Of a stretch of 64,000 bases of DNA, positions 11,184 to 26,730 are shown one piece after another. Origin of the DNA: Mesorhizobium loti (GTDB lineage Bacteria; Pseudomonadota; Alphaproteobacteria; Rhizobiales; Rhizobiaceae); NCBI RefSeq assembly GCF_013170705.1, contig NZ_CP033334.1:4565501-4629500 (forward strand), in the 5' to 3' direction. A program made the position numbers and the translations under genes. The notes beneath the pieces are model-generated. The model had not been told where the DNA came from and ran no database searches. It saw only the letters and a program-made list of their open reading frames with translations. Position 1 is the stretch's first letter. Each line of letters starts with the position of its first letter.

Positions 11184-12377
11184 TCATCGTTCGAGGCAGA
11201 TCGCCACGCCCTGGCCGCCGCCGATGCAGAGTGAGGCCAGGCCTTTGCGGGCGTTGCACCTCGTCATCTCGTGGAGCAGCGTCACCACGATGCGGCAGCC
11301 GGATCCGGCCAGCGGATGGCCGAGAGCGATGGCGCCGCCACTGATGTTGATGATCTCCTCGTTCCAGCCCATCTCGCGATTGACCGCGATCGCCTGCGCG
11401 GCGAAGGCTTCGTTGATCTCCATGACGTCGAGGTCGGACGTCCGCCAGCCGGCCTTCTGCAGCGCAAGGCGTGACGCCGCGACGGGGCCCAGCCCCATAT
11501 CCATCGGCTCGACACCCGCCGAGGCATAGGACGCGATGCGGGCGAGGGGCTTTAGCCCGAGTTCGTTCATCCGTGTCTCCGCCATCACCAGCACGGCGGC
11601 GGCACCATCGTTGAGGCCGGAGGAGTTGCCGGCCGTGATTGTCCCCTCTAGCTCGAAGACCGGCTTAAGCCGGCCAAGCCCTTCGAGGGTGGTCGAGGGG
11701 TTTGGATGCTCGTCGCGGTCGACGACGACATCGCCTTGCCTGGTCTTTACGGAGACTGGCACAATCTCATCGTCGAACCTTGCCGAACGGATGGCGGCGT
11801 CGGCTTTCTCCTGTGAACGCAGCGCGAAGCGGTCCTGCTCATCGCGCGTGATCTGGTAGCGCCGCGCCAGCGACTCGACCGTGACGCCCATATGGACCTG
11901 ATGGAAGGCGTCCCACAGCCCGTCGGTTACCATCGAATCCTTGACGACCCGGTCGCCCATGCGCACGCCGCCGCGAACGCCTGGAATGAAGTGCGGCGCC
12001 GATGTCATCGAATCCTGTCCGCCGGCAATCACGCAATCGGCGTCGCCGCAGCGAATTGCCTGCGCGGCGAGATGGATCGACTTCTGGCCGGCGCCACACA
12101 CCTTGTTGACCGTCATGGCGGGGACGTTAACCGGCAGGCCGGCCTTGAGCGATGCCTGTCTTGCCGGGTTCTGCCCGGCGCCGCCGGTCAGCACCTGGCC
12201 CATGATCACTTCGCTGACGGCTCCTGGCGCAAGCCCGGTTCCGGCCAGCATCGCCTGAATGAGCTGCCCGCCCAATTCCGCCGCCGAAAGGCTGGCGAGC
12301 GCGCCGTTGAGCTTGCCGATCGGCGTGCGTTTGGCCGCCACGATATACACCGCATCCTGCAATTTCCTGTCCTCCAT
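11184..12377 (-). CDS. acetyl-CoA acetyltransferase (thiolase)
   Basis: A 397-residue biosynthetic/degradative thiolase that interconverts two acetyl-CoA and acetoacetyl-CoA. The catalytic residues are all present: Cys94 in NKVCGAGQKS, the NEAFA motif, the histidine of GHPLAGSG and the second cysteine in CIGGGQG. The ATG at 12377 fits the family start; upstream in-frame extension would run through the operator at 12413-12430. It is divergent from acetoacetyl-CoA synthetase, and the intergenic region holds a strong palindrome shared with a second operon. Together the two enzymes would turn acetoacetate into two acetyl-CoA. It may equally serve poly-hydroxybutyrate metabolism. Confidence 0.93.
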   Translation of the reverse strand: MEDRKLQDAVYIVAAKRTPIGKLNGALASLSAAELGGQLIQAMLAGTGLAPGAVSEVIMGQVLTGGAGQNPARQASLKAGLPVNVPAMTVNKVCGAGQKSIHLAAQAIRCGDADCVIAGGQDSMTSAPHFIPGVRGGVRMGDRVVKDSMVTDGLWDAFHQVHMGVTVESLARRYQITRDEQDRFALRSQEKADAAIRSARFDDEIVPVSVKTRQGDVVVDRDEHPNPSTTLEGLGRLKPVFELEGTITAGNSSGLNDGAAAVLVMAETRMNELGLKPLARIASYASAGVEPMDMGLGPVAASRLALQKAGWRTSDLDVMEINEAFAAQAIAVNREMGWNEEIINISGGAIALGHPLAGSGCRIVVTLLHEMTRCNARKGLASLCIGGGQGVAICLER

Positions 12378-12494: not shown

Positions 12495-14441
12495 ATGTCA
12501 TCCGTGCTTTGGGCGCCGGCGCCGGCCGCGTTCGAATCGTCCAATCTTGCGCGCTTTTGCCGGGCCAACGGCTTCGACCCGCGCGACTACGAAACGCTGC
12601 ATCGCTGGTCGGTCAGCGACCCCGGCGCGTTCTGGCGGGCGGTGTGGGACTTTGGCCGCGTGATCGGCGATCCCGGCGCGATCTCTTTCCTGCGCGACGG
12701 TCAGGCGCCGATGACGCAGAGCCGATTCTTCCCCGACGCATCACTCAATCTCGCGGAAAACCTGCTGCGGGGCGACGGTGATCGGGCCGCGATCATCGAG
12801 ACCGACGAGAGCGGCCATTTCCGCACCTTCACCCTTGGCGAGTTGCGCCGGCGCGTCGCCAGGACGGCGCAAGGCCTGCGCGCGGCCGGCGTGGCGAGGG
12901 GCGACAGCGTCGGCGGCATCCTGCCCAACCGTGTCGAAGGTCTCGTGGCGCTGCTGGCGACGCTGTCGATCGGCGCTGTCTGGTCGTCCTGCTCTCCGGA
13001 TTTCGGCGCCGCGGCGATCGTCGACCGCCTCGGCCAGATCGGCGTCAAGGTGCTCTTTGCCGCGCCGCGCTATCATTACGCGGGCAAGGAACACGACATC
13101 TCCGAGCGGTTGGCCGAGATCGTCGTCGCGATGCCGACTGTGACCACGCTGGTGTTGACCGGTGAGCCGGGCGCTAAGCCCGACTGCACGGCGGCCTGTC
13201 TCGACTTCGACGATTTCGGCAGCGACGGTACGCTCGCCTTTGAACGCGTGCCCTTCGACCATCCGGCCTATGTGCTCTACACCTCGGGTACCACGGGTGC
13301 GCCGAAGGCGATCGTCCACCGCACCGGCGGCGTGCTGCTCCAGCATCTGAAGGAGCATCTGCTGCATGGCGATGTCCGCCCCGGCGACGTCATGAGCTGG
13401 TACACCAACACGGCCTGGATGATGTATCACTGGCTGATCTCGGGCCTCGCCTGCGGCGCGACCGTGGTGCTCTATGACGGCGCGCCGATCCTGAAGACCG
13501 CCGAGGGCCTCGACCCCAGTCCGCTGTGGACAATGGCGCAGCGTGCACGCGTCACGCATTTCGGCACCAGCCCGAAATATCTGGCGACGCTGGCCGCCGA
13601 AGGCTACGCGCCGGGACGTCTGCACGACCTGTCCTCGCTACGCTCCTTGCTCTCGGCCGGTGCGCCGGTCTCGCCCGGCCAGTTCGACTGGGTCTACGCG
13701 CATGTGAAGCAGGACATGATCTTTGCCTCGATCTCGGGCGGCACCGAGATCATCGGCTGTTTCCTGCTCGGTTCGCCGATCCATCCGGTTCGCCGTGGCG
13801 AACTGACTGTGAAAGGGCTGGGCCTTGCGGTGGCTGTCATGGACGAGCGCAACGCGCCGGTCATCGGCCGGCAAGGCGATCTGGTCTGCACCGAACCGTT
13901 CCCGTCCATGCCGCTGACCTTCTGGGGCAAGGACGGCGACACGCGCTACCACGCCACGTATTTCGCGGCACGCCCGGAAATCTGGACGCATGGCGATGTC
14001 GCGGAGATGACCGCGCATGGCTCGGGGATCATCCATGGCCGATCGGACACGACGCTGAAGCCCGGCGGCGTGCGCATCGGCACGGCCGAGATCTATGCCG
14101 CCTGCGAGACCTTCGCCGAGATCGAGGATTGCCTGGTGTTCGGCGCGCCGGTCGAAGGCGACGAGGAGATCGTGCTTTGCGTCAAGCTGAATGACGGCTT
14201 TGATCTGACGCCTGAGTTCGCCGCCCAGATCCGCCGCGCCATTCGGGAAGGAGCATCGCCGCGCCACGTGCCACATCGCATCCATGCTGTAAAGGCCGTG
14301 CCCTACACGCTCAACGGCAAGAGGGTGGAAGGCGCGGCGCGAACGACGCTTGAAGGCAAGCCGGTGAAGAATATGGCTTCGCTGGCCAACCCCGCATGCC
14401 TCGAGGAATACCGCGCGCTCGACAGGAGCAGAGCGGCATGA
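12495..14441 (+). CDS. aacS: acetoacetyl-CoA synthetase (acetoacetate-CoA ligase)
   Basis: A 648-residue adenylate-forming enzyme that activates acetoacetate to acetoacetyl-CoA using ATP. The N-terminus has the acetoacetate-CoA ligase cap (RFCRANGFDPRDYETLHRWS). The nucleotide-binding loop is YTSGTTGAPKAIVH near residue 265, followed by WYTNTAWMMYHWLISGLACG, which marks acetyl/acetoacetyl-CoA synthetases, and the C-terminal lysine in PYTLNGKRVE near residue 608. GGGAGGAAATTC precedes the ATG. It opens a tightly overlapped operon and is divergent from a thiolase that can consume its product. An AacS-type assignment is more likely than acetyl-CoA synthetase because of the cap and length. Confidence 0.9.
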   Translation: MSSVLWAPAPAAFESSNLARFCRANGFDPRDYETLHRWSVSDPGAFWRAVWDFGRVIGDPGAISFLRDGQAPMTQSRFFPDASLNLAENLLRGDGDRAAIIETDESGHFRTFTLGELRRRVARTAQGLRAAGVARGDSVGGILPNRVEGLVALLATLSIGAVWSSCSPDFGAAAIVDRLGQIGVKVLFAAPRYHYAGKEHDISERLAEIVVAMPTVTTLVLTGEPGAKPDCTAACLDFDDFGSDGTLAFERVPFDHPAYVLYTSGTTGAPKAIVHRTGGVLLQHLKEHLLHGDVRPGDVMSWYTNTAWMMYHWLISGLACGATVVLYDGAPILKTAEGLDPSPLWTMAQRARVTHFGTSPKYLATLAAEGYAPGRLHDLSSLRSLLSAGAPVSPGQFDWVYAHVKQDMIFASISGGTEIIGCFLLGSPIHPVRRGELTVKGLGLAVAVMDERNAPVIGRQGDLVCTEPFPSMPLTFWGKDGDTRYHATYFAARPEIWTHGDVAEMTAHGSGIIHGRSDTTLKPGGVRIGTAEIYAACETFAEIEDCLVFGAPVEGDEEIVLCVKLNDGFDLTPEFAAQIRRAIREGASPRHVPHRIHAVKAVPYTLNGKRVEGAARTTLEGKPVKNMASLANPACLEEYRALDRSRAA

Positions 14442-15589
14442 GCCGGGCCAAGGGGGCGATCGTCGGCATCGGCGAGTTGAAACCGCAGCGCCTGACCAGC
14501 GGCGTGACGACGCTGGAGATGATCGCCGAGGTCTCGCGCCTGGCAGTGTTCGATGCCGGGCTGGAGCCGGCTGCGATCGATGGGCTGCTGGTCGGGCCGC
14601 AGGTCGGCGAGACGCCGCAGCATGTTCCGGCAACGATCGCCGAATATCTCGGCCTGGCGCCGACCATGGCCAATGTCGTCGACCTGGGCGGCGCTTCGGG
14701 GGCAGGGATGGTCTGGCGCGCGGCTGCGGCGATCGAGGCCGGCATGTGCGAGACAGTGCTGTGCGTGCTCGCCAACAACCGCGAGGCGGCGGCACCCCGC
14801 TCGCCCAACCGCAATCCGATCCGCGAGTTCGACGTGCCGTTCGGCGCCTCGGGCGCCAACATCTCCTATGCGCTGCTGATGCAGGCGCATATGGCAGAGC
14901 ATGGCTCGACCGCCAGGGATTTCGCGCTGATCGCCGCCGCGGCGCGCGCCAATGCGCAGCTCAACCCCGACGCCATCTTCTTCGGCAAGCCGGCGGATGT
15001 GGACGCCGTGCTGGCGTCGCCGATGGTCGCCTCGCCATTGCATCTATACGAGATCGTCATGCCGGTCGCCGGCGGCGAGGCGGTGATCGTCACCTCGGCC
15101 GAACGTGCGCGCACGCTGCCCGGAAGACCCGTGCATCTGCTCGGCGCCGGCGAGAAGGTCACGCATCGCGCGGTCAGCCAGGCGCCCAGTCTCACCTCCG
15201 GTCCGCTGAAGAGCGCCATGGCCCGGGCCTTCGCGCAGTCCGGCACCGACGCCAATCAGATGAATCTTCTCTCGCTCTACGACTGCTACACGATCATGGT
15301 CGCCACGACGATCGAGGATGCCGGCCTCTGCGCCCCCGGCCAGTTCGGCGCGTGGCTGCGCGACCATAATCTTTCGCACCAAGGCGACAAGCCGCTCAAC
15401 ACCCACGGCGGTCAGCTCGGCTTCGGCCAGCCGGATCTTGCCGGCGGCATGACGCATGTCGTCGAGGCGGTGCGCCAATTGCGCGGCAAGGCGGGCGAGC
15501 GCCAGATCGACAAGGCCGAGCTGGCACTGGTCACCGGGAACGGCGCGACGATGAGCGAGGCGACCGCGCTCGCGCTGGGAGCCGCCTGA
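14438..15589 (+). CDS. SCP-x-like thiolase fold protein lacking the catalytic cysteine
   Basis: A 383-residue thiolase-superfamily protein. At the position of the thiolase nucleophile it reads DLGGASGAG, with Ala86 in place of cysteine, and the second catalytic cysteine near the C-terminus is replaced in TGNGAT (366-371). NTHGGQLGFG (321-330) keeps the conserved histidine-glycine loop, and YDCYT (Tyr281, Tyr284) matches the tyrosine region used by Ltp2-type steroid side-chain aldolases. The ATG at 14438 overlaps the aacS stop (ATGA). The next gene is a DUF35 OB-fold protein, the obligate partner of Ltp2-type aldolases, then a MaoC hydratase. I infer a C-C lyase or acyl-binding role rather than true thiolase activity; the substrate is unknown. 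Confidence 0.82.
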   Translation: MSRAKGAIVGIGELKPQRLTSGVTTLEMIAEVSRLAVFDAGLEPAAIDGLLVGPQVGETPQHVPATIAEYLGLAPTMANVVDLGGASGAGMVWRAAAAIEAGMCETVLCVLANNREAAAPRSPNRNPIREFDVPFGASGANISYALLMQAHMAEHGSTARDFALIAAAARANAQLNPDAIFFGKPADVDAVLASPMVASPLHLYEIVMPVAGGEAVIVTSAERARTLPGRPVHLLGAGEKVTHRAVSQAPSLTSGPLKSAMARAFAQSGTDANQMNLLSLYDCYTIMVATTIEDAGLCAPGQFGAWLRDHNLSHQGDKPLNTHGGQLGFGQPDLAGGMTHVVEAVRQLRGKAGERQIDKAELALVTGNGATMSEATALALGAA

Positions 15590-16029
15590 TGTCCGTCGAT
15601 CTCAACACATTGAAAACCCCCGCTCCGACGATCACCGCGCTGACCCAGCCATTCTGGGACGCGGCGGCGCAAGGGCGGCTGAAAATCCAGCACTGCGAGG
15701 ACTGCGGCAAGGCGGTGTTCTACCCGCGCCCGATGTGCCCGCATTGTTGGAGCAAGCGCCTCGTCTGGAAGGAGGCGTCGGGCAGGGGCCAGCTGAAATC
15801 CTTTTCCCTAGTACACAAGCCGGGGCATCCCGGCTGGCTGCCGGTGGCACCTTATGTGGTTGGGCTGGTCGAACTGGCCGAGGGCCCGACCATGCTGAGT
15901 TTCATCTTGCCGGGCATGCGATCGCCTGGGGTTGGGGACGCGCTCTTGCTCGCGCCGACAGCCATAGGCGGCCGTGTCCTGCCGGCCTTCAAACCAGTCG
16001 AAACCGCAACAGAGGAGAAGCCGAAATGA
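15589..16029 (+). CDS. Zn-ribbon OB-fold protein (DUF35 family)
   Basis: A 146-residue protein with an N-terminal helix, a rubredoxin-like zinc ribbon using Cys36, Cys39, Cys50 and Cys53 (HCEDCG ... PMCPHC) and a C-terminal OB fold. DUF35 proteins bind acyl-CoA and stabilise thiolase-like partners, for example ChsH2 with Ltp2 in steroid degradation. The ATG overlaps the stop of the thiolase-like gene by one base (TGATG), consistent with a 1:1 complex. No enzymatic residues of its own are visible. Its role should be read together with genes 14438 and 16026. Confidence 0.88.
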   Translation: MSVDLNTLKTPAPTITALTQPFWDAAAQGRLKIQHCEDCGKAVFYPRPMCPHCWSKRLVWKEASGRGQLKSFSLVHKPGHPGWLPVAPYVVGLVELAEGPTMLSFILPGMRSPGVGDALLLAPTAIGGRVLPAFKPVETATEEKPK

Positions 16030-16478
16030 GCACCGAGACGAAAGACGGCTGGGCAGGCGTGGTGAAGGGCCGTCCGCAGGTCGGCGCCTTTGCCGAACGC
16101 ACGCGCCGCACGCGCATCAGCGACATCGAAGCCTTCACCGACATCACCGGCGACCGCAATCCGCTGCACTATGACCGCGCGCTGGCCGAGAAATCGGTGT
16201 TCGGCAAGCTGATCGTCCAAGGCGGCGTCACCTCGGGCATCCTCAATGCGCTGGTCGCCGAGGATCTGCCGGGACCCGGCACGGTGTTCCTCGAGGTCGC
16301 CTGGAAGTTCGTCAAGGCGGTTGGCGTCGACGAGGAGATCACCGGACGGGTCGAGGTCAAGGAGGTCCGCCCCGACAAGCCGATCTGCAAGATCGAGACC
16401 AGCGTGCGCAACGGCCAGGGCGAGCTTTGTCTCACCGGCACGGCGACGGTGTTCACCGTGCCGCTGCAAGGCGTATGA
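16026..16478 (+). CDS. MaoC-like enoyl-CoA hydratase/dehydratase
   Basis: A 150-residue single hot-dog domain protein. The hydratase-2 motif FTDITGDRNPLHYD is present with the catalytic pair Asp43 and His48, followed by the central hot-dog helix (GKLIVQGGVTSGILNALV). Such enzymes hydrate enoyl-CoA to (R)-3-hydroxyacyl-CoA, or act on related acyl-thioesters. ATGA overlap joins it to the DUF35 gene. In the steroid pathway a MaoC protein supplies the hydroxyacyl-CoA that the DUF35/thiolase-like aldolase then cleaves; the gene order here suggests the same logic on another substrate. Confidence 0.88.
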   Translation: MSTETKDGWAGVVKGRPQVGAFAERTRRTRISDIEAFTDITGDRNPLHYDRALAEKSVFGKLIVQGGVTSGILNALVAEDLPGPGTVFLEVAWKFVKAVGVDEEITGRVEVKEVRPDKPICKIETSVRNGQGELCLTGTATVFTVPLQGV

Positions 16479-17719
16479 ACACGGTGGGCGACAGCCGGCT
16501 TGGCGTGGCGGCCGACCGCGAACGCTGGCGCGTTCTGTCGCTGCTTTGCCTGGCGGTCGTCCTGTCGCTGACCACCTGGTTTTCGGCGACCGCCATCCTG
16601 CCCGAGCTGAAGCAGGAGCTTGCGCTCGGCCCTGGCGCCGAGGCCTGGTTGACCAATGGCGTTCAGGTCGGCTTCGTGATCGGCGCGCTGGCGGCGAGCC
16701 TGGTCAACCTTCCCGACCTGGTGCGGCTCGGTCGTCTCATGGCGGCGGCGGCAATGGTTGCCGCGCTCGCCAACGCCAGCCTGCTGTTCCACCCCGATCC
16801 GGGCGGCGCCATCGCCGCGCGCATCGTTACCGGCGCGGCACTCGCCGGCGTCTATCCCCCGGCCCTGAAGCTTGTCGCGACCTGGTTCACGCGCGACAGG
16901 GGACTGGCGCTCGGCGCGGTCATCGGCGCGCTGACCATCGGCTCGGCGCTGCCGCATCTCTTCCGCGCCGCCTCAAGCGCGCTCGACTGGCGGCCGGTGG
17001 TCGCCGCCGCCAGCCTGGCGACGGCCATCGGCGCGCTGCTGTTCCTGCTGTTTGCCAAGGAAGGGCCCTATCCCTTCGGCAAGGCGGTGTTCGAGCCGGC
17101 GCGCATCGGCCAGGTGTTTCGTGAAAAGCCGCTGCTGCTGGCCAATCTCGGCTATCTCGGCCATATGTGGGAACTCTACGCCATGTGGGCGTGGCTGCTT
17201 GCCTACACGCGCGCCGCTTTCGAAGCGCAGGCGATCGGAACAGCCGCCGCCGCTTCGCTGTCGACCTTCTTCGTCGTCGCCTCCGGCATCCTGGGATGCC
17301 TGCTCGGAGGCTATCTTTCGGACCGCATCGGCCGAACGGCGACCACAGCCGGCATGATGATCGTCTCGGGAAGCTGCGCCCTGCTGATGGGCTTTCTGTT
17401 CACCGGGCCGCTCTGGCTGTTCATGCTGGTGGCCGTTGTCTGGGGCATTTCGGTGATCGGCGATTCCGCGCAGTTCTCCGCCGCCATCACCGAGCTTGCC
17501 GACCGCCGCTTTGTCGGCACGGCGCTCTCGGTGCAACTCGGCGCCGGTTTCGCGCTGACAGTGCTCGCCATCTGGCTGACACCGCACTTTGCCGACCTCA
17601 TCGGCGGCTGGCGCTGGGCCTTCCTGCTGCTCGTTCCCGGGCCGCTTCTCGGGGCCGCGGCCATGCTGTGGTTGCGAAACTTGCCGGAGAGCGTGAATAT
17701 GGCTGGCGGCCTCCGTTAG
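16475..17719 (+). CDS. MFS transporter
   Basis: A 414-residue major facilitator with about twelve hydrophobic segments. The loop between helices 2 and 3 reads LVRLGRLMAAAA rather than the full classic motif A; the second-half equivalent is clearer (GGYLSDRIGRTATTAG). The ATG at 16475 overlaps the MaoC stop by four bases. As part of an acyl-CoA operon it most likely imports the organic acid or ketone metabolised by the neighbours, but export is not excluded. No substrate motif is recognisable. Confidence 0.87.
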   Translation: MNTVGDSRLGVAADRERWRVLSLLCLAVVLSLTTWFSATAILPELKQELALGPGAEAWLTNGVQVGFVIGALAASLVNLPDLVRLGRLMAAAAMVAALANASLLFHPDPGGAIAARIVTGAALAGVYPPALKLVATWFTRDRGLALGAVIGALTIGSALPHLFRAASSALDWRPVVAAASLATAIGALLFLLFAKEGPYPFGKAVFEPARIGQVFREKPLLLANLGYLGHMWELYAMWAWLLAYTRAAFEAQAIGTAAAASLSTFFVVASGILGCLLGGYLSDRIGRTATTAGMMIVSGSCALLMGFLFTGPLWLFMLVAVVWGISVIGDSAQFSAAITELADRRFVGTALSVQLGAGFALTVLAIWLTPHFADLIGGWRWAFLLLVPGPLLGAAAMLWLRNLPESVNMAGGLR

Positions 17720-17772
17720 GGAGGATGCTGCCGCTCCTTGAGTCGCGGCAAATGATTTTGCGGCGGGACCGA

Positions 17773-18627
17773 ATGGAACAAACGACCAGAATGCGTGGGC
17801 GTCCTCGCTACGACCAGGAAGATGCCGGAGCCGCCGAGGCGTTCCGCTCGATCGGCTCCAAGGTCGAGCTCAACCGCGACGAGGCGGCTCCGCTGTGGGT
17901 GCAATTGCGCAACCAGGTCGAGGAAGCCATCAACACCGGCCTGCTGGCGGCCAATTCGCGCATCCCTTCCGAGCAGGCCCTGTGCGATTTCTTCGGCGTC
18001 TCGCGTCCGGTCGTGCGCGCCGCGATCGGCTCGCTATCCAGCGAGGGCCGCATCATCAAGATGCCGCGCAAGGGCATGTTCGTCGCCGCACCGCGCGAGC
18101 ATGTCGACTTCATGACGGCCAATCTCGGCGTGTTCGACGACCTGACGGCGAAAGGCCACAAGGTCTCGACGCGCACGCTCGAAATCTACCGCTGCCCGCC
18201 GAACGAGAAGGAATCCAGCGTCTTCGGCATTCCCGCCAATGGCAGCGTGGTCCGCATCAGCCGCGTCTACATGACCGACGGCGCGCCGATCACCATGACG
18301 CGCATCAGCCTGCCGGGGCACCGGGTGCCCGGTCTCGAAAACATCCTGTCGGAGAACCAGTCGATTTTCGGCACCATCCGCGCGGTGTTCGGCCTGACGG
18401 TGAAGCGCGCCGACCGCTGGCTGCGCGCGGCCTTGCCCACCAAGGAAGAGGCCGAGCAGATGGGCGTTGCCGCCAACACCCCGCTGATCGAGATCGAGTC
18501 GATTGCCTATGACGCGGATGGCGCGGCGCTCGAATATTACGAGGCCTTCTACAACTCTTCCGTCGCCCGCATCCACATGGCGGTCGAGCAGCCGTCGGCG
18601 ACGGTGAACGGTGTCGATCGCACCTGA
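17773..18627 (+). CDS. GntR family transcriptional regulator with UTRA domain (HutC-like)
   Basis: A 284-residue regulator. The winged helix-turn-helix (SRIPSEQALCDFFGVSRPVV through EGRIIKMPRKGMFV) lies in the first 110 residues, followed by a UTRA ligand-binding domain with VVRISRVYMTDGAPITMTRISLPG and a final YYEAFYNSSVARIHM strand. The start is uncertain: ATG at 17773 has weak GGGACC upstream, while ATGs at 17752 and 17725 are in frame and would add 7 or 16 residues. It is the last gene of the aacS operon and lies directly before the promoter of the carbohydrate operon. It probably binds the palindromes at 12413 and 18654 and so governs both operons and itself. Confidence 0.88.
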   Translation: MEQTTRMRGRPRYDQEDAGAAEAFRSIGSKVELNRDEAAPLWVQLRNQVEEAINTGLLAANSRIPSEQALCDFFGVSRPVVRAAIGSLSSEGRIIKMPRKGMFVAAPREHVDFMTANLGVFDDLTAKGHKVSTRTLEIYRCPPNEKESSVFGIPANGSVVRISRVYMTDGAPITMTRISLPGHRVPGLENILSENQSIFGTIRAVFGLTVKRADRWLRAALPTKEEAEQMGVAANTPLIEIESIAYDADGAALEYYEAFYNSSVARIHMAVEQPSATVNGVDRT

Positions 18628-18828: not shown

Positions 18829-19605
18829 GTGGATTACCGGTCGCAATTCGACCTGACGGGCGAGGTTGCCGTCGTCACCGGCGGCGCCAGCGGCATCGGC
18901 TTGGAAGCCGCCAAGGCGCTTGGTACTTGCGGCGCGCGCATCGTCCTTCTCGACATGAATACGCAAGGGCTGAAAGCCGCCGCCGACGAACTCATGGCGG
19001 CCGGTGTCGCCAGCGTCGACGGCCGCGTGCTGGACGTCACCGATCCGCAAGCCGTCGAAGCAATGGCCGCTCGAATCGTCAGCGATTTCGGCCAGGTCGA
19101 CATACTGGTCAACAGCGCCGGCATCGCCCGCCTCAACGCCGCGCTCGACACATCGGACGAAGAATGGCGCCTGGTGATGGACGTCAACGTCAACGGCGTC
19201 TACTGGGTCTCGCGCGCCTTCGGCCGCTCGATGGTCGCACGCAACAAGGGCTCGATCGTCAATCTCGGTTCGATGTCGGGCCTGATCATCAACCGTCCGC
19301 AGACCGCGCCCTCCTACATGGTGAGCAAGGGCGCCGTGCACATGATGACCAAGGCGCTGGCCGTCGAATGGGCGAAATCGGGCGTTCGCGTCAACGCCCT
19401 GGCGCCGGGCTATGTCGGCACCGAGATGACGCTGAAAATGCGCGAGCGCCCGGAACTCTTCAACACCTGGATCGACATGACGCCGATGGGCCGGCTCGGC
19501 GAGCCGCACGAGATCGCCTCGGCGATCCTGTTTCTCGCCTCGCCTGCGTCGAGCTACGTCACTGGCGCGATCCTGTCGATCGATGGCGGCTACACGGCCT
19601 GGTGA
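18829..19605 (+). CDS. SDR family oxidoreductase
   Basis: A 258-residue classical short-chain dehydrogenase. It has the Rossmann motif TGGASGIG, NSAGIA, the catalytic serine in NLGSMSGL, YMVSKGAVHMM (Tyr and Lys) and the C-terminal SIDGGYTAW. The start is GTG at 18829, decided by GGAGG about 7 bases upstream; no ATG fits. It leads an operon with an aldolase, a sugar-type ABC importer, a kinase and a second SDR, so it probably oxidises a sugar alcohol or sugar to a keto form. Asp after the first strands (LLDMNT) suggests NAD preference. Confidence 0.9.
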   Translation: MDYRSQFDLTGEVAVVTGGASGIGLEAAKALGTCGARIVLLDMNTQGLKAAADELMAAGVASVDGRVLDVTDPQAVEAMAARIVSDFGQVDILVNSAGIARLNAALDTSDEEWRLVMDVNVNGVYWVSRAFGRSMVARNKGSIVNLGSMSGLIINRPQTAPSYMVSKGAVHMMTKALAVEWAKSGVRVNALAPGYVGTEMTLKMRERPELFNTWIDMTPMGRLGEPHEIASAILFLASPASSYVTGAILSIDGGYTAW

Positions 19606-19632
19606 AGGGCCGAGCAAGGATTGGAATATCGC

Positions 19633-20292
19633 ATGACCGTTTCGGACCTAGAGGCACGCCAGGCAATCATCGATGCCTGCCTCAAGATGAACGCGCTGGG
19701 CATCAACCAGGGCACCTCAGGCAATGTCAGCCGACGCCATGGCGAGGGCATGCTGATCTCGCCGACCAGCACGCCTTACGAGACGCTGGTGCCCGAGGAC
19801 ATCGTCTTCATGGCCTGGGACGGCGAGGTCGACGGGCGCCTGCCGCCGTCGAGCGAATGGCGTTTCCATCTCGACATCATGAAGGCGCGGCCCGAGGTCA
19901 ACGCGGTCGTCCATGCGCATCCAACCTTTTGCACGACCATCGCCATCATGGGCAGGAAGATACCGGCGATCCATTACATGGTGGCGGTCGCCGGCGGCAG
20001 CGACATTCGCTGCGCCCCTTACGCCACCTTCGGCACGGCCGAGCTTTCGGCGCATGCGGTGGAGGCGCTGCGCGACCGCAAGGCCTGCCTGCTCGCACAG
20101 CACGGCATGATCGCGGTCGGTTCCAGCCTCAGCCAGGCGATGTGGCTGGCGGTGGAGGTGGAAACGCTGGCGCGGCAGTATCACGGCGCCCTGCAGATCG
20201 GCGAGCCGCCGATCCTGTCCGAGGAGGAGATCGAAAACGTCATCAAGCGCATGGCCAGCTACGGCCTGCGCGACAAGGAGGCTGCTGCCTGA
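19633..20292 (+). CDS. class II aldolase/adducin family protein (fuculose-phosphate aldolase-like)
   Basis: A 219-residue zinc-dependent aldolase or epimerase-fold enzyme. GTSGNVSRRH at residues 27-36 binds phosphate; Glu75, His94, His96 (HAHPTF) and His157 (QHGMIAVG) are the expected zinc ligands and base. Family members split ketose-1-phosphates into dihydroxyacetone phosphate and an aldehyde. ATG 19633 is taken as start; a TTG at 19621 is in frame but has its Shine-Dalgarno too close. With the PfkB kinase of the same operon it would form a phosphorylation and cleavage pathway for an imported sugar or polyol. Confidence 0.88.
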   Translation: MTVSDLEARQAIIDACLKMNALGINQGTSGNVSRRHGEGMLISPTSTPYETLVPEDIVFMAWDGEVDGRLPPSSEWRFHLDIMKARPEVNAVVHAHPTFCTTIAIMGRKIPAIHYMVAVAGGSDIRCAPYATFGTAELSAHAVEALRDRKACLLAQHGMIAVGSSLSQAMWLAVEVETLARQYHGALQIGEPPILSEEEIENVIKRMASYGLRDKEAAA

Positions 20293-20355: not shown

Positions 20356-21357
20356 ATGACCGGATCCATGAAAGGCCTCGTCAAGGCGCTCGCTTTGGGG
20401 TTGGCGGCGGCTTGCAGCCTGGCCGCCATCTCGGGCGCGAGTGCCGAGGAACTGTCGCTCAAGGGCAAGCGCATCGGCGTCTCCGCCATCGGAACGGATC
20501 ACTACTGGGACCTGATGGCGTTCCGCGGCATCCAGGACCGCGTGAAGGAGCTCGGCGGCGAAGTGATCGCGCTCGACGCCGGCCGCAAGGACCAGCAGCA
20601 GATCGCGCAGTTGCAGACGCTCATCGCTCAGAAGCCCGACGCCATCATCGAGCAGCTCGGCAATCTGGAAGTGCTGAACCCGTGGCTGCAGAAGATCCGC
20701 GATGCCGGCATCCCGCTGTTCACGGTCGACACCGCGACGCCGCACGCCATCAACAACACCACGTCCAACAACTACAACATCGGCGCCGAGATCGCGCTGC
20801 AGATGGTCGCCGACATGGGCGGCAAGGGCAATGTGCTGGTCTTCAACGGCTTCTACAGCGTGCCGGTCTGCAAGATCCGCTACGACCAGCTGAAATATGT
20901 GCTGACCTCGTTCCCCGATGTGAAGATCGTCGAGCCGGAACTGCGCGACGTCATCCCGAACACCGTGCAGAGCGCCTATTCCAACGTCACCGATATGCTG
21001 ACCAAGTCGCCCGAGAAGGGCTCGATCGGCGCGGTGTGGGCCTGCTGGGACGTACCGCAGATCGGCGCCACGCAGGCGGTCGAGGCCGCCGGCCGCAACG
21101 AGGTCAAGACCTACGGCATCGACGGCAGCCCGGAAGTCATCAAGATGGTGATGGATCCGAAGTCGTCGGCAGGCGCGGTGGCCGCGCAGCAGCCCTATGA
21201 GATCGGCAAGACATCGGTTGACAATGCCGCCAAATATCTTGCCGGCCAGAAGGTTGCGCCCTTCACCTTCGTACCGGCGGTGCTGATCAACAAGGAAAAT
21301 GCCGCCGAAAAAGGAAAGCCGTTCCTCGACGCCGCCGAAAAAGCAGGCGTTAAATAG
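20356..21357 (+). CDS. sugar ABC transporter substrate-binding protein (RbsB-like)
   Basis: A periplasmic receptor of 333 residues with a signal peptide (KGLVKALALGLAAACSLA, cleavage near ASA-EE at residue 30). The mature part has the Peripla_BP_4 fold: KRIGVSAIGTDHYWDLMAFRG, then DAGRKDQQQIAQLQTLIAQKPDAIIEQ and the hinge-strand sequences. GGGAGGAAATGAA precedes the ATG. It belongs to the pentose/hexose/polyol receptor class that works with RbsA-type double ATPases; its ligand is unknown. Confidence 0.92.
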   Translation: MTGSMKGLVKALALGLAAACSLAAISGASAEELSLKGKRIGVSAIGTDHYWDLMAFRGIQDRVKELGGEVIALDAGRKDQQQIAQLQTLIAQKPDAIIEQLGNLEVLNPWLQKIRDAGIPLFTVDTATPHAINNTTSNNYNIGAEIALQMVADMGGKGNVLVFNGFYSVPVCKIRYDQLKYVLTSFPDVKIVEPELRDVIPNTVQSAYSNVTDMLTKSPEKGSIGAVWACWDVPQIGATQAVEAAGRNEVKTYGIDGSPEVIKMVMDPKSSAGAVAAQQPYEIGKTSVDNAAKYLAGQKVAPFTFVPAVLINKENAAEKGKPFLDAAEKAGVK

Positions 21358-21428
21358 GCGGAACGAAACGGCGGGCAGCCATCTCCAGGGAAATGGCCGC
21401 CCGCCACCATCAACCAGGATTGACGGCC

Positions 21429-22955
21429 ATGCAGACAGCAAAGCGTGAAATTGCTGTATCGATGACGGACATATCGAAGCGGTTCGGTCCAGTGCGGGCG
21501 CTGGAGAACGCGAACCTCGAGATCGCGCGCGGCTCGATCCTCGGCCTTGTCGGCCAGAACGGCGCCGGCAAGTCGACGATCATCAAGGTGCTGGCCGGCA
21601 TCATCCGACCGGACAGCGGCACCATCGTCATCAATGGCGAGACCGTGACCTCGCTGTCGCCGGCAGCGGTGGAAAAGCTCGGCGTGCATTTCATCCATCA
21701 GGACAGGCTGCTGGTGCCGACCGCGACTGTCGGCGAGGCGGTGTTCCTCGGCCATGAAATCGGTCTCGGCCCGTTCGTCAGCCGCCGCGCCATGGAGCGC
21801 AAGGCGGCCGATCTGTTGAAGCGCTTCTTCGGCATGGAATTGCCGGCGGGAACCCTGGTCAAGGACCTGACCACGGCACAGCAGAAAGTGGTGCAGATCA
21901 CGCGGGCGCTGGCGCAGAAAGCGTCCGTGCTGGTGCTTGACGAGCCGACCGCGGCGCTGGTCAAACGCGAGGTCGACAGCCTGTTCGATGTGCTGCGCCG
22001 ACTGCGCGACGACGGCATCGCCGTGGTCTTCATTTCCCACTACATGCAGGAAATCGAAAAGCTGTGTGACCGCGTCACCGTGATGCGCAACGGCACCGAT
22101 GTCGGTACGGTCGATCCGCGTGAGACATCGATCGACGAGATCATATCGATGATGATCGCCCGCGATGTCGGCGAGATGTTTCCCAAGCGTTCGGTCACGC
22201 TGGGCGCGCCGGTGCTCGAAGTCGCCAATCTGCGGCTCGGCGGCAGCTTCGAAAACATCGGCTTCAACGTTCGCGCCGGCGAGATCGTCGGCCTCACGGG
22301 CCTGCTCGGCTCGGGCGCCAAGGAAATCGTGCAGTGTCTGTTCGGCCTCAAGACCGCCGATGGCGGCCAGGTCAAGGTCGAGGGCAAGCAGCTGTCGCTG
22401 TCGACGCCGGTCAAGGCCGTGCGTGACGGCATCGCCATGCTGCCGGAGGATCGTCGCGCGCACGGCGTGGCGCTCGGCCTGTCGGTGCGCGAGAACATTT
22501 CGCTGGCGAGCCTGCGCCGTTATTCCAGAAGCGGACTGGTCAGCCGCAACAGTGAGAACCAGGCGGTCGACGGACTGATCAAGGAATTGTCGATCAAGAC
22601 GCCGCATCGCGACGCGCTGGTGCGCGAACTCTCTGGCGGCAACCAGCAGAAGGTGGCGATCGCCAAATGGTTGAGCTGCCGGTCGCGGGTCTATGTGCTG
22701 GACGAGCCCACGGTGGCCGTCGATGTCGGCGCCAAGGTCGAGATCTACAATCTATTGAACCGGCTGGCGGGCGAGGGGGCGGCGATCCTGCTTCTGTCGT
22801 CGGACCTGCTCGAACTGGTCGGCGTCTGCGACCGGGTGCTGGTCGTCTATCGCGGCCGGCTGGCCGGTACCTTCTCCGGTGCGGCGATGAACAGCGATGC
22901 GTTGCTCGCGGCGTCATCGGGCGCGCGCTCCAACGCTGACGGGGTGGCAGCATGA
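21429..22955 (+). CDS. sugar ABC transporter ATP-binding protein (RbsA/MglA type, double ATPase)
   Basis: A cytosolic ATPase of 508 residues with two fused ABC domains. The first has Walker A GQNGAGKST and Walker B VLVLDEPTAAL. In the second the P-loop is degenerate (GLLGSGAKE) with signature LSGGNQQKVAIAKWL and Walker B YVLDEPTVAVDVG, the usual asymmetry of RbsA proteins. ATG 21429 is preferred over the upstream in-frame 21393 because AGGA lies about 9 bases before it. It energises the two permeases that follow. Confidence 0.92.
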   Translation: MQTAKREIAVSMTDISKRFGPVRALENANLEIARGSILGLVGQNGAGKSTIIKVLAGIIRPDSGTIVINGETVTSLSPAAVEKLGVHFIHQDRLLVPTATVGEAVFLGHEIGLGPFVSRRAMERKAADLLKRFFGMELPAGTLVKDLTTAQQKVVQITRALAQKASVLVLDEPTAALVKREVDSLFDVLRRLRDDGIAVVFISHYMQEIEKLCDRVTVMRNGTDVGTVDPRETSIDEIISMMIARDVGEMFPKRSVTLGAPVLEVANLRLGGSFENIGFNVRAGEIVGLTGLLGSGAKEIVQCLFGLKTADGGQVKVEGKQLSLSTPVKAVRDGIAMLPEDRRAHGVALGLSVRENISLASLRRYSRSGLVSRNSENQAVDGLIKELSIKTPHRDALVRELSGGNQQKVAIAKWLSCRSRVYVLDEPTVAVDVGAKVEIYNLLNRLAGEGAAILLLSSDLLELVGVCDRVLVVYRGRLAGTFSGAAMNSDALLAASSGARSNADGVAA

Positions 22956-23983
22956 GCGCGACAACTGTCCACGCCCAAGCCGACGTGTCCGACCAAACCA
23001 GCGCCACGGGCAAAAGTGCCGGACGGCGCTTCGCCACCCTCGTCGTGCGGCTCGGCGCGATTGCCGCCTTCGCCGCGATCATGGCCTATTTCGTCGTCTT
23101 TGCGCCGGGCTTCACATCGACCTTCAACCTGATCAACGTCGTCGAGCAGTCGGCGATCCTGGGTGTGCTCGCCTATGGCATGACTTCCGTCATCATCGGC
23201 GGCGGCTCCGATGTCACCGAAGGCGGCATCGACCTGTCGATCGCCGCCAATATGGGGCTGTGCGCCGCCGTCTACGCCACGCTGCTGTCGATGGGCTATG
23301 GCGACGTCCTTTCGGCGCTGGCGGCCATCGCCGTCGGCATGGCGGTTGGCGCGCTGAACGCCCTTGCCGTGGTCGGTCTCGGCATCCTGCCGCTGCTGGC
23401 GACACTTGCCGTGCTCAACGTAGCCGCCGGCATGGAACTCACGCTCACCCAGAACACGGTCGTCGGCGCATCCTCCCCGCTGCTCGGCTTCCTGGTTTCC
23501 GGGGCCTTTCTTGGCATCTCGGCGCTGGCCTGGGCGCTGATCCTGTTCTCCGCCCTCGTCATCGCCATCTTTCACTACACCTCGTTCGGGCTCAGGCTTT
23601 ACGCGGTTGGTGGCCATCCGGAAGCAGCGCGCGCGGCCGGTCTCAGCGTGCCCTTCTACGTGTCCTTCACCTATGTGCTGAGCGGCTTCTGCGCGGCGGT
23701 GGCAAGCGTCCTCACCGTTTCGCGGCTCTCGGCCAGCACGCCCGGTTCCGGCGAACTGCTTTTGTCGGTGCTGGCGGCGGCGTTACTCGGCACCGTCTTT
23801 TCCCGCCGCTTCGTTCCGACCATGGGCGGCACGCTGCTCAGCGTGCTGTTCATCGGCCTGCTCGCCAACGGCTTCCAGTTGCTCAACGTCTCCAGCTACT
23901 GGGTCAACGGCGTGCAGGGCGCGCTGATCCTGCTGGTGGTGGCCATCACATCCTTTGCCCGCGGCTCGGAGGGTTCACGATGA
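22952..23983 (+). CDS. sugar ABC transporter permease (RbsC type)
   Basis: A 343-residue inner-membrane permease with a long cytosolic N-terminus and eight or more helices. It contains ILGVLAYGMTSVIIGGGSDVTEGGIDLSIAANMG, the RbsC-type pattern with the GGIDLS signature, and the cytosolic loop (YAVGGHPEAARAAGLSV) that contacts the ATPase. ATGA overlap with the ATPase gene. It forms a heterodimer with the next gene rather than the homodimer of E. coli RbsC. Confidence 0.92.
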   Translation: MSATTVHAQADVSDQTSATGKSAGRRFATLVVRLGAIAAFAAIMAYFVVFAPGFTSTFNLINVVEQSAILGVLAYGMTSVIIGGGSDVTEGGIDLSIAANMGLCAAVYATLLSMGYGDVLSALAAIAVGMAVGALNALAVVGLGILPLLATLAVLNVAAGMELTLTQNTVVGASSPLLGFLVSGAFLGISALAWALILFSALVIAIFHYTSFGLRLYAVGGHPEAARAAGLSVPFYVSFTYVLSGFCAAVASVLTVSRLSASTPGSGELLLSVLAAALLGTVFSRRFVPTMGGTLLSVLFIGLLANGFQLLNVSSYWVNGVQGALILLVVAITSFARGSEGSR

Positions 23984-24963
23984 GCGTCTCGGCAAATGAC
24001 AGTCCCAAGATGAGCCTGCGCGCCTTCCTTGCCAAATACAGCGTGCTCATCGCCTTCGCGGCGATCGTCATCTTCTTCGCTGTGGCGAGCCCGACCTTCC
24101 TGACGCCGGCGAACCTCTTCAACGTGCTGGTCAACAATGTCGTCATGCTGGCGATCGTGGCGCTCGGGCTCACCATCGTCATCTCGTCCGGCGGCATCGA
24201 TCTTTCCGTCGGCGTGTCCGTTGACATGGCCAGCATGGTCTTCGTGATGCTCTTGGCTGCCGGTTACAGCGGCGTGGTCGGCGTCGGTGGCGGCCTGGGT
24301 GCTGCCCTGGTCGTCGGTATCCTCAACGCCATCCTCATCACCAGGCTCAACATCAGCCCGTTCCTGGCAACGCTTGGCGTGCTGTTCATCGGCCAGAGCA
24401 CACAACAGCTCGCCACCAGCGGCGGCCAGCCAATCTACCTCACCAGCGGCTATGCCAGCGACCAGTTCAACGCCATTGCCCGCACCGCTTTGTTCGGCGT
24501 GCCGACGCCGGTGATCGTGCTGGTCGTCTCGGCCATCGCGGTCCACGTCCTGCTGCACCGCTCTGTCTTCGGTCGCTATGTGCAGGCGATGGGCGCGCAG
24601 CCGGGCGTCGCCTGGTATTCCGGCATCCGCGTGCCGCGCGAGTTGTCGATGGTGCATGTGCTGTGCGCGCTGCTGGCGGGCGTCACCGGCATCCTGCTGT
24701 CGGCAACGGTCAAGTCCTACGTGCCGCTGTCCGGCAACGCCTTCCTGCTCGATGCCATCGGCGCCACCTTCATCGGCACGACGCTGAGCCGCGAGCGCAA
24801 GCCTTCGGTGATCGGCACGCTGCTCGGTGTCCTACTGCTTGCCATCGTCAAGAACGGGCTGCTGCTCGTTGGCTGGAACTTCTACTGGCAGCAGGTCGGC
24901 ATCGGCGTGTTGGTCTTCCTGGTGCTGGCCGTGAGCTTCGGCCTTCGCCGCGCCACCCATTGA
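23980..24963 (+). CDS. sugar ABC transporter permease (RbsC type), second subunit
   Basis: A 327-residue permease paralogous to its upstream neighbour. VALGLTIVISSGGIDLSVGVSVDMASM is the signature, and YVQAMGAQPGVAWYSGIRV is the coupling loop. It starts with an ATGA overlap. A perfect 17-bp tandem duplication covers its last codons and stop, so the protein end is unchanged by the second unit. The operon continues into a PfkB kinase after 37 bases. Confidence 0.92.
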   Translation: MSVSANDSPKMSLRAFLAKYSVLIAFAAIVIFFAVASPTFLTPANLFNVLVNNVVMLAIVALGLTIVISSGGIDLSVGVSVDMASMVFVMLLAAGYSGVVGVGGGLGAALVVGILNAILITRLNISPFLATLGVLFIGQSTQQLATSGGQPIYLTSGYASDQFNAIARTALFGVPTPVIVLVVSAIAVHVLLHRSVFGRYVQAMGAQPGVAWYSGIRVPRELSMVHVLCALLAGVTGILLSATVKSYVPLSGNAFLLDAIGATFIGTTLSRERKPSVIGTLLGVLLLAIVKNGLLLVGWNFYWQQVGIGVLVFLVLAVSFGLRRATH

Positions 24964-24986
24964 GTTCGACCACCCATTGAGTTCGA
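24953..24986 (+). repeat. perfect 17-bp tandem duplication across a stop codon
   Basis: CCACCCATTGAGTTCGA occurs at 24953-24969 and again immediately at 24970-24986 with no mismatch. The first copy contains the last two codons and TGA stop of the permease gene; the second lies in the gap before the kinase ribosome-binding site. This looks like a recent slippage duplication that lengthened the intercistronic gap. Confidence 0.9.
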
Positions 24987-25000
24987 AAGGTCAGCCAACC

Positions 25001-25966
25001 ATGCCACAATTCGACGTCAGCTCGATCGGCTTCTACGTCCTGGATATCCTGGGGCGGCCGGTGTCGCGCATCCCCGAGGGCGGCCGCGCCGACTATATCG
25101 AGGAGATCCGCATGACTGTCGCAGGCACGGCCGGCGCGACCGGCATGGACTGCGCCATCCTCGGGTTGAAGACGCGGGCCGTCACCACGCTCGGCACCGA
25201 CGACATGGGCGATTGGTTCCTGGCCAAGCTGAAGAAATATGGCCTGGAGTGCGGCCTGGTGCGCCGCGACGGCAGCGTCCAGACCTCCTCCACCATTCTG
25301 CCGGTACGGCCAAATGGCGAGCGTCCGGCATTGCATGTGCCGGGGACGGCTGCCGTTTTCGAGGTCGCGGACGCCGATCTCGACGCCGCCCTTGACGCCA
25401 CGGTCGTCCATGTCGGCGGCACCGGGCTGTTGAAGCGTTTTGACGGCGTGCCGACGGTCAAGCTGTTGAAGCGCGCCAAGGAACTTGGCCGCATCACGAC
25501 CTTCGATCTGATCCAGGCGACGCCGGAAACCTGGAAGCTGGTTGAGCCGTGCCTGCCCTATATCGACTATTTCGTGCCGAGCATCGACGAGGCGGGCGAG
25601 ATGGCGCACGACCGGGATCCGGCTCGCGTTGCCGCCTTCTTCAAGTCGAGGGGCGTGAAGAACTGCATCCTGACACTCGGCGCCGATGGCGTGCATGTCT
25701 CGCCGCAGCATGGCGAGGATTTCCACCTGCCGGCCTTCGACGTCGAGGTCTTCGACACCACGGGCTGCGGTGACTCCTTCACCGCCGGCATCATCGTCGG
25801 CATCGTCAAGGGCTGGGACCTCAAACAGTCTGCCCGCTTCGCAACTGCCGTCGCCGCCAAGGTGGCGATGGGGCTCGGCTCCGACGGCAAACTCGTTTCA
25901 TTCGACGACACGATCGTGGCGATGAATTCGCTCCCGGTCAGGACATCAAAGGTGCAAGCAGCATGA
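25001..25966 (+). CDS. PfkB family carbohydrate kinase
   Basis: A 321-residue ribokinase-fold kinase. It has the N-terminal substrate region (GGRADY, then TAGATGMDCAILGLKT) and the C-terminal PfkB signature DTTGCGDSFTAGIIVGIVKG, with the catalytic Asp in GCGD; Cys replaces the more usual Ala of GAGD. The ATG at 25001 is chosen with AAAGG about 10 bases upstream. In this operon it should phosphorylate the keto-sugar made by an SDR, giving the substrate of the class II aldolase. The exact sugar is unknown. Confidence 0.9.
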   Translation: MPQFDVSSIGFYVLDILGRPVSRIPEGGRADYIEEIRMTVAGTAGATGMDCAILGLKTRAVTTLGTDDMGDWFLAKLKKYGLECGLVRRDGSVQTSSTILPVRPNGERPALHVPGTAAVFEVADADLDAALDATVVHVGGTGLLKRFDGVPTVKLLKRAKELGRITTFDLIQATPETWKLVEPCLPYIDYFVPSIDEAGEMAHDRDPARVAAFFKSRGVKNCILTLGADGVHVSPQHGEDFHLPAFDVEVFDTTGCGDSFTAGIIVGIVKGWDLKQSARFATAVAAKVAMGLGSDGKLVSFDDTIVAMNSLPVRTSKVQAA

Positions 25967-26730
25967 CCATTCTTCCTGAGGCCAAGGGCAAGACGGCTCT
26001 CGTCACCGGCGCCAGCCGCGGTATCGGCAGGGCGCTCGCCAAGGGGCTGGCCGAGGCGGGCTTCGACGTCGCCGTCACCGACCTGCCGTCACAGGCCGCG
26101 GAGCTTGCCGTCACCAAGGCCGAGATCGAGGCGGCGGGCAGCAAGGCCTATGTCTACACAATGGATGTCAGCAAGAAGCGCGAGATCGAAGCGACGGCGC
26201 AGGCGCTGCTTGCGGAGGCTGGTAGCATCGACGTACTGGTCAACAATGCCGGCATCTTGAAGCCAAGCCTGCTCCAGGATTTGGACGAAGCCAATTGGGA
26301 CGCGCATTTCGATGTCAACGCCAAGGGCGTGCTGATGATGTGCCAGGCCGTGCTGCCGCATATGCGCGCCAGGAAATCGGGCAGGGTGATCAACATAGCC
26401 TCGATCGCCGGCCGCCAGGGGGTGCCGACGCAAGGCCATTACGCGGCGACGAAATCGGTGGTGATCACGCTGACCCGCGTGCTGGCGCAGGAAGTCGGCA
26501 TGGACGGCGTTACCGTCAACGCCATCTGCCCCGGCATCATCCTGACCGAGATGGGCAAGAACAATCTCGGCAGCGAAGCGGCGATCCACCATTGGGAAGA
26601 TGTCGCGGCGCTGAAGCGCCTCGGCGCGCCGGAGGACGTCGTCGGGCCGGTGCTGTTCTTCGCCTCGGACCTGTCGGCTTTCGTCACCGGCCAGTCGCTC
26701 AACGTCGACGGCGGTATCTACTACCATTGA
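25963..26730 (+). CDS. SDR family oxidoreductase, second in operon
   Basis: A 255-residue classical SDR. Visible motifs are TGASRGIG, NNAGIL, NIASIAGRQG with the catalytic Ser, HYAATKSVVITLTR with Tyr and Lys, and the C-terminal LNVDGGIYYH. ATGA overlap with the kinase gene. It is clearly different from the SDR at 18829, so the operon carries two dehydrogenases; one may oxidise the polyol and the other interconvert a later or epimeric intermediate. It is the last gene before the degenerate region at 26.7-27.5 kb. Confidence 0.9.
   Translation: MTILPEAKGKTALVTGASRGIGRALAKGLAEAGFDVAVTDLPSQAAELAVTKAEIEAAGSKAYVYTMDVSKKREIEATAQALLAEAGSIDVLVNNAGILKPSLLQDLDEANWDAHFDVNAKGVLMMCQAVLPHMRARKSGRVINIASIAGRQGVPTQGHYAATKSVVITLTRVLAQEVGMDGVTVNAICPGIILTEMGKNNLGSEAAIHHWEDVAALKRLGAPEDVVGPVLFFASDLSAFVTGQSLNVDGGIYYH

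Follow-up and report, generated by a model that had tools for sequence, protein, structure and literature searches.

What reaction can a thiolase-like protein catalyse when the nucleophilic cysteine of thiolases is absent? The question is raised by a stretch of 64,000 nucleotides of Mesorhizobium loti (contig NZ_CP033334.1, positions 4,565,501 to 4,629,500; hereafter the window), taken from a genome consisting of a single contig of 6.87 Mb. Five of its genes overlap end to start (ATGA or TGATG overlaps) and code for an acetoacetate-coenzyme A (CoA)-ligase-like protein (LIG), the thiolase-like protein in question (ALD), a DUF35 protein, a MaoC-type hydratase and an MFS transporter. An initial annotation, made from the letters alone, had described a translationally coupled module of thiolase-like, four-Cys DUF35 and MaoC genes, flanked by an acetoacetyl-CoA synthetase and a true thiolase (THL). 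The overlaps, Pfam matches and conserved cysteines confirmed the coupled module, and profile matches over cut-off confirmed the flanking genes (TIGR01217, 704.8 bits against a cut-off of 520.9, and PDB 4wd1, 481 bits, for LIG; NCBIfam TIGR01930, 465 bits against 240.55, and a Cys/His/Cys triad for THL). By analogy with Sal, the bile-acid side-chain aldolase of Comamonas testosteroni (CtSal), we propose that ALD and DUF35 together are likely to act as a CoA-dependent retro-aldolase on a small, polar, non-steroid 3-hydroxyacyl-CoA.

In Pfam, ALD matched Thiolase_C_1 over cut-off (138 bits) and Thiolase_N under its cut-off; every NCBIfam match was under cut-off. Its closest solved relative was CtSal (PDB 9myr_A, 328 bits), and Ltp2, which the initial annotation had taken as the nearest model, reached 151 bits (6ok1). 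We aligned 47 proteins, 25 of which (the window ALD and 24 chosen orthologues) are called clade rows below. The nucleophile column holds Gly85 in ALD, not the neighbouring Ala86 as had been thought, and glycine in 25/25 clade rows, as is published for CtSal (PMC12329534). Cysteine occupies this column in five rows: three SCP2-like proteins, 7yvy and BbsB. The protein had also been called cysteine-less and devoid of the second thiolase cysteine. It contains Cys104, Cys109, Cys283 and Cys298, and Cys283, in a YDCY motif, is the second cysteine of SCP2-type thiolases (HDCF motif), with the histidine of the motif changed to tyrosine. Tyr302 and Cys304 of CtSal were demonstrated by mutation to form a catalytic dyad (PMC12329534). 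They correspond to Tyr281 and Cys283 of ALD, as do Gln347 and Gln352 to Gln326 and Gln331, the latter standing in the column of the thiolase GHP histidine. Counterparts identical to Tyr302, Cys304, Tyr305, Gln347, Gln352, Gly89 and Tyr165 of CtSal were found in all 25 clade rows. The alignment also recovered the published matches of CtSal Tyr302 with the tyrosine of Ltp2 YDHF and of Gln352 with Ltp2 Tyr344 (PMC12329534); ALD has neither YDHF nor Tyr344. Gly85, YDCY, NTHGGQ and Gln331 were each conserved in at least 80 of the 81 loci described below, which is more than expected by chance.

The phylogeny (IQ-TREE, 47 rows, 387 columns, with chosen clade rows and TbSLP outside the sampled rows) grouped the 25 ALD rows in one clade (99/97). 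A second group, the Sal clade (100/99), from which ALD was excluded, comprised CtSal and three plasmid proteins, one from Vibrio and two from Rhodococcus. The two clades were sisters (100/98), and the five thiolase rows with a nucleophilic cysteine fell outside both (100/98). Tested in this way against Ltp2 and SCP2 thiolases, ALD thus lies outside the true cysteine thiolases with Sal as its closest known relative, while Ltp2 and several further rows sat on long branches and their exact placement is unsure. With this position and an intact dyad, the earlier proposal of a non-steroid retro-aldolase held as far as sequence comparison reaches.

Other branches of the sampled families had neighbourhoods of their own. 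The Vibrio plasmid protein of the Sal clade (L112) adjoins a 936-bp gene annotated as an OB-fold protein. The two Rhodococcus plasmid proteins (L111, L116), possibly further aldolases, each lie beside two MaoC-type genes; one has acyl-CoA dehydrogenase genes and a Rieske protein in addition, the other an AMP-binding protein. Ten thiolase-like proteins with 33-40% identity to ALD (L010-L018, L117) lack the nucleophilic cysteine and have YDSF, YDAF or YDDY in place of YDCY; a DUF35 gene is near eight of L010-L018 and an OB-fold gene near L117. These may be other aldolases or perform other chemistry.

The two sister clades differ in the length of one loop. Between positions 110 and 131, the 25 clade rows have 22-24 residues versus 36-42 in the four Sal-clade rows, and the short form ends in NRNP(I/A)REF in 25/25 clade rows. 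Judged by sequence, this loop would be the counterpart of the steroid-contacting β4-α4 loop of CtSal, which has been modelled against the steroid A ring (PMC12329534). The short loop and its conserved end suggest that ALD would accept a small polar acyl group.

We then compared 81 loci, namely the window together with the best 80 among the 159 relatives that two peptide patterns retrieved, counting neighbour genes with cluster profiles built in this analysis. Many of these loci are Mesorhizobium and hence non-independent, and several end at contig ends, which makes the counts of absence upper bounds. The loci span Pseudomonadota, Bacillota and one Verrucomicrobiota metagenome-assembled genome (MAG). 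DUF35 was present in all of them and was counted directly downstream of ALD in 72; five of the other nine do occupy the position directly downstream, and the remaining four were counted as present. Its Cys36, Cys39, Cys50 and Cys53 were kept in 81, 79, 81 and 81 loci, respectively. In 79 loci LIG immediately preceded ALD on the same strand; THL lay within the examined flank in 71 (its triad, C87, H347 and C377 of the matched stretch, being conserved in at least 70) and MaoC was present in 58, at least 57 of which keep the Asp and His of DxNPxH. Transporters were of the MFS (57 loci), MHS (16) or SSS (8) type, and genes of a polyol block recurred: class II aldolase in 42 loci, a solute-binding protein (SBP) in 38 and a GntR regulator in 39. 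LIG-ALD-DUF35-THL and a transporter of the MHS or SSS type make up most Bacillota loci. MaoC and MFS genes are additionally present in three Bacillota loci (L077, L082, L084), and in one (L089) the cluster profiles did not find THL. On plasmid pRHL1 of Rhodococcus jostii RHA1 the order is ligase, ALD, DUF35, MHS, MFS, MaoC, THL.

The ligase varied in a few places. No ligase gene was found in the otherwise similar cluster of a Geminicoccaceae MAG (L058). A LIG-ALD fusion was rejected there, no ligase domain being present; the ligase may be supplied from elsewhere, or may not always be needed. The M. loti genome has a second acetoacetate-CoA-ligase-like gene (C1:2674713-2676650, L103; 44% identity to 12495-14441). 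A quick ligase tree gave it a long branch among the module ligases, and we therefore make no claim that the module ligase forms a separate clade.

Some lineages add redox genes to the module (L108, 26219-29093; L110, 1-1028; L074, 205-6023 and 11313-12737; L052; L100), the set comprising a flavin-containing monooxygenase (FMO), aldehyde dehydrogenase, GMC oxidoreductase with electron-transfer flavoprotein (ETF) and 4Fe-4S protein, a FadH/OYE-like reductase and a GlcD-like oxidase. These enzymes may feed acids into the module or process its aldehyde. The longest version seen, in Sulfitobacter dubius, has FMO and aldehyde dehydrogenase genes after the second short-chain dehydrogenase of the polyol block (SDRb) and a TIGR00366-family gene between a TetR gene and LIG. 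Vibrio penaeicida (L074) has the GMC oxidoreductase, ETF subunits and 4Fe-4S protein before LIG and the aldehyde dehydrogenase after. The flavoenzyme of L052 and L100 (666/678 residues) was not retained as a trimethylamine dehydrogenase, its best matches, under cut-off, being FadH/OYE-type models.

The polyol/sugar pathway is joined to the module in about half of the 81 loci. We examined this link in 61 relatives. ALD orthologues with at least 91% identity occurred in eight genomes, counting the window's own, among the 37 of the genus; none was found in the 24 relatives outside the genus, where the best match had 40% identity. SBP (E 1e-90) was present in 7 of the 8 relatives with ALD and in none of the 53 without it, and the sugar kinase PfkB in 7/8 and, at 51% identity, in 1/53; the exception among the eight is an 86% complete genome (G007). 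Within one genus, this link may stem from the joint inheritance of one island. Its recurrence, with different gene orders, in Marinomonas, Paraburkholderia and Rhodobacteraceae argues for a functional link. Devosia loci (L067, L070 and partly L061) have another sugar-type ABC system nearby. The second-closest solved relative of SBP, 4wt7, was solved with allitol (PMC10318746). Taken together, SBP, the fuculose-phosphate-type aldolase and PfkB suggest a route from a polyol through a ketose and a ketose phosphate to dihydroxyacetone phosphate and an aldehyde. We discarded the idea of an aldehyde dehydrogenase standing in for the polyol block, since Sulfitobacter and Rhizobium bangladeshense each have the two in a single cluster. 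In wider surveys at E 1e-100, the window's own genome was the only one of 385 from the class with ALD, and 3 of 398 from the phylum had it. In a protein search (8000 candidates scored, 120 listed), the nearest named relatives among the matches listed were Mesorhizobium.

The initial annotation had seen no steroid gene nearby. This agrees with our scan of ten proteins between 11.2 and 21.4 kb, among which no steroid family was recognised, and with the absence from the genome of any match to TIGR03213 (HsaC-type dioxygenase), the only steroid-ring marker searched; five of the 14 control genomes gave weak matches to the same model, none over cut-off. PF22691 has two members in the genome: ALD and a protein at C1:5556342 (L002), which has the nucleophilic cysteine and HDCF. 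We favour a non-steroid substrate because the loop is short, the ligase belongs to the acetoacetate family, polyol-block genes occur in 38-42 of the 81 loci and SBP co-occurs with ALD. The branched substrate suggested earlier received no specific support, the context pointing instead to polyol- or sugar-linked chemistry. Our guess, a tentative one, is a 3-hydroxy acid that is polyhydroxylated or otherwise short and polar, for example a 2-deoxyaldonate. Deoxyribonate, 3-hydroxy-3-methylglutaryl-CoA (HMG-CoA), carnitine and 3-hydroxybutyrate were considered from gene context and the evidence fixes none of them; the case for carnitine came from the aldehyde dehydrogenase, whose betaine-aldehyde-dehydrogenase match is under cut-off.

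From gene order, residue conservation, tree placement and polyol co-occurrence we infer the following pathway. An acid would be imported by the transporter, or supplied by the polyol block and alcohol or aldehyde oxidases, and converted by the ligase to its CoA thioester; MaoC, where present, would hydrate the enoyl-CoA form. In a putative complex with ALD, DUF35 would shape the acyl pocket. Tyr281, as the base, would deprotonate the 3-hydroxyl, the C2-C3 bond would break, and Cys283, with Gln326 and Gln331, would protonate the acetyl-CoA enolate, yielding acetyl-CoA and an aldehyde or ketone. THL would serve the pathway by handling one of its 3-oxoacyl-CoAs: from a 5-hydroxy-3-oxoacyl-CoA, for instance, it could release by thiolysis the 3-hydroxyacyl-CoA that ALD then cleaves, each core enzyme being used once. 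The fuller scenario is a steroid-type retro-aldolase recruited to carbohydrate catabolism, which would cut acetyl-CoA from a sugar-derived 3-hydroxyacyl-CoA (e.g. 2-deoxyaldonyl-CoA) with no dehydrogenase step of β-oxidation and whose module spread between phyla; as a whole we hold it to be rather doubtful.

Several observations weigh against a retro-aldolase of the Sal type. The oxyanion hole proposed for CtSal is formed by the side chain of Gln161 and the backbone amide of Gly391 (PMC12329534). Both residues are kept in 4/4 Sal-clade rows and replaced in 25/25 clade rows, by Ala140 and Ala370 respectively. The second change may be harmless because Gly391 acts through its backbone amide; the loss of the Gln161 side chain is for the same reason weightier, and is a real ground for caution. 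Arg216, a CoA contact of CtSal, is changed to Pro or Ala, a position also variable within the Sal clade (R, K, P, P). At the level of gene content, LIG is not directly upstream on the same strand in 2 of the 81 loci, MaoC was not found by the cluster profiles in 23, and the pRHL1 ligase belongs to another subfamily (474 bits with the acetate-CoA-ligase model and 408 with that of acetoacetate-CoA ligase, both under cut-off). Moreover, retro-aldol cleavage alone leaves the near-constant THL and acetoacetate-type ligase unexplained; a 3-oxo acid within this pathway may be their substrate. The uniform alanine at the Gln161 position and these regular neighbours (ligase 79/81, thiolase 71/81) would also fit a sister of Sal that uses the same Tyr/Cys pair for decarboxylation of a 3-oxoacyl-CoA or malonyl-CoA, or for another enolate reaction, and TbSLP (YDCF) does decarboxylate malonyl-CoA, very slowly (PMC12329534). 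We nevertheless consider such other chemistry unlikely, given that the dyad and both Gln partners are retained, that MaoC, which makes or removes 3-hydroxyacyl-CoA, accompanies 58/81 loci, and that CtSal is reported in the available part of the same article to be without malonyl-CoA decarboxylase activity.

Every core gene would also find a role if ALD were specific for HMG-CoA, cleaving it to acetyl-CoA and acetoacetate, from which ligase and thiolase would then give two acetyl-CoA; ALD would in that case be an HMG-CoA lyase of a different origin from the known enzyme. MHS-type transporters, which can carry di- and tricarboxylates, occur in 16/81 loci, a tricarballylate symporter is among the weaker NCBIfam matches, and the conserved Arg/Asn segment might offer a binding site for a carboxylate. 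We find this improbable, since the polyol block, aldehyde dehydrogenase and alcohol oxidases would be left unexplained and no HMG-linked gene was recognised in the annotated neighbourhoods, where no family search was aimed at one. A true thiolase whose nucleophile has been relocated is more improbable still: its kinship with thiolases and the conservation of Cys104 and Cys109 in at least 80/81 loci are set against glycine in the nucleophile column of all clade rows, Gln331 in place of the GHP histidine and the five cysteine thiolases that branch outside at 100/98. As for a bile-acid or steroid side-chain aldolase, the sister relation to CtSal is its one argument; the position outside the Sal clade, the missing long loop, the zinc site of four Cys instead of C3H1, the lack of a TIGR03213 match (the only steroid marker searched) and the polyol context make it barely credible. 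The Sal-type retro-aldolase with a small polar substrate is thus the reading that we retain, and the genes on which it bears are listed below.

Table. Genes of the module and of the joined polyol block in the annotated part of the window (about 11.2-26.7 kb).
Feature	Position	Strand	Description
THL	11184..12377	-	True thiolase, acetyl-CoA C-acyltransferase type; divergent from operon; start codon inferred
LIG	12495..14441	+	Acetoacetate-CoA-ligase-like acyl-CoA synthetase; first of overlapping set
ALD	14438..15589	+	Thiolase-fold protein, Gly85 in place of nucleophile Cys, YDCY with Tyr281/Cys283; putative retro-aldolase
DUF35 partner	15589..16029	+	Zinc ribbon and OB fold (Pfam zf-ChsH2 and OB_ChsH2_C), four Cys; PF12172 and PF01796
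MaoC	16026..16478	+	R-specific enoyl-CoA hydratase type; MaoC_dehydratas, PF01575 64.5 bits; PDB 1iq6 72.7 bits
MFS transporter	16475..17719	+	Last of overlapping set; PF07690 87.9 bits
GntR/UTRA regulator of joined polyol block	17770..18627 (start approximate)	+	PF00392 and PF07702; cluster profile 502 bits
SDRa, short-chain dehydrogenase	18829..19605 (start approximate)	+	PF13561; cluster profile 499 bits
AldII, L-fuculose-1-phosphate-aldolase-type class II aldolase	19621..20292	+	NF005984 269 bits, cut-off 264; PDB 1fua 239 bits
SBP, sugar/polyol ABC solute-binding protein	20356..21357	+	PDB 3l49 509 bits, 4wt7 389 bits
Sugar ABC ATPase	21393..22955	+	Cluster profile 972 bits
Two ABC permeases	22952..24963 (about 22952-23983, 24001-24963)	+	Cluster profile 562 and 125 bits
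PfkB sugar kinase	24977..25966	+	Cluster profile 534 bits; PDB PfkB/ribokinase-type matches
SDRb, second short-chain dehydrogenase	25963..26730	+	Cluster profile 432 bits; last cluster gene as recognised

Upstream of THL, positions 6695-10481 of the window look by eye like an Opp-type ABC transporter (permeases and two ATPase genes), whose ATPase cluster (c20) is present in 7/81 loci.

The open-access papers listed in our searches include work on steroid aldolases but none that describes this module, most subscription journals being outside the search. In the papers examined, the thiolase-like retro-aldolases described, Sal and Ltp2, act on steroids (PMC12329534, PMC11321319). The ALD clade is a distinct and conserved sister found in Rhizobiales, other Proteobacteria, Bacilli and Rhodococcus, with its dyad intact and the long loop gone. 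By analogy, small sugar-like acids are probably also cut by a kind of enzyme familiar from the breakdown of steroids. If so, retro-aldol chemistry would be a more general way of cutting acetyl-CoA from 3-hydroxyacyl-CoAs, and proteins labelled acetyl-CoA acetyltransferase or thiolase family protein among the matches listed would have to be renamed. The nucleophile-less thiolase-like TbSLP has been suggested as a possible aldolase (PMC12329534), a suggestion that the ALD clade offers a way to test.

Among known systems, the acetone cluster of Desulfotomaculum was set aside: it contains a DUF35 but shows no visible link to the module in the available part of PMC8084838. The deoxyribonate CoA-pathway cluster of Klebsiella michiganensis (PMC6365646) shares the logic of a CoA synthetase, a thiolase and MFS transporters working on a sugar-derived 3-hydroxy acid, but uses a hydroxyacyl-CoA dehydrogenase and thiolase, and the part of the article available does not mention a retro-aldolase. 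The benzoylsuccinyl-CoA thiolase BbsAB (PDB 7pxp) likewise pairs a thiolase-like protein with DUF35, yet BbsB keeps its nucleophilic cysteine and falls outside the ALD clade. SCP2-type thiolases and SCP2-thiolase-like proteins have the cysteine of HDCF/YDCF in common with ALD, whereas the nucleophilic cysteine and GHP histidine of the SCP2 thiolases are both missing from it. Ltp2-ChsH2(DUF35) is a steroid C3 side-chain aldolase with a thiolase-like sequence, no nucleophilic cysteine, a DUF35 partner and a tyrosine base; it differs in its YDHF motif and Tyr344 acid, where ALD has Cys283 and Gln331. The greatest likeness is to Sal-Shy (PMC12329534, PMC11321319), which has a thiolase-like sequence with glycine for the nucleophile, the Tyr-Asp-Cys-Tyr dyad, two Gln partners, a DUF35 partner and a MaoC hydratase in its pathway. 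In the window, by contrast, DUF35 and MaoC are separate genes, the DUF35 zinc site has four Cys and not the C3H1 of the Sal type, the loop is short with alanine at the oxyanion Gln161 position, and the neighbours are an acetoacetate-type ligase and polyol genes, with no steroid gene recognised. ALD is therefore not a member of Sal, from which loop, oxyanion Gln, zinc site, clade and context distinguish it, and judged by its closest model it probably works like Sal.

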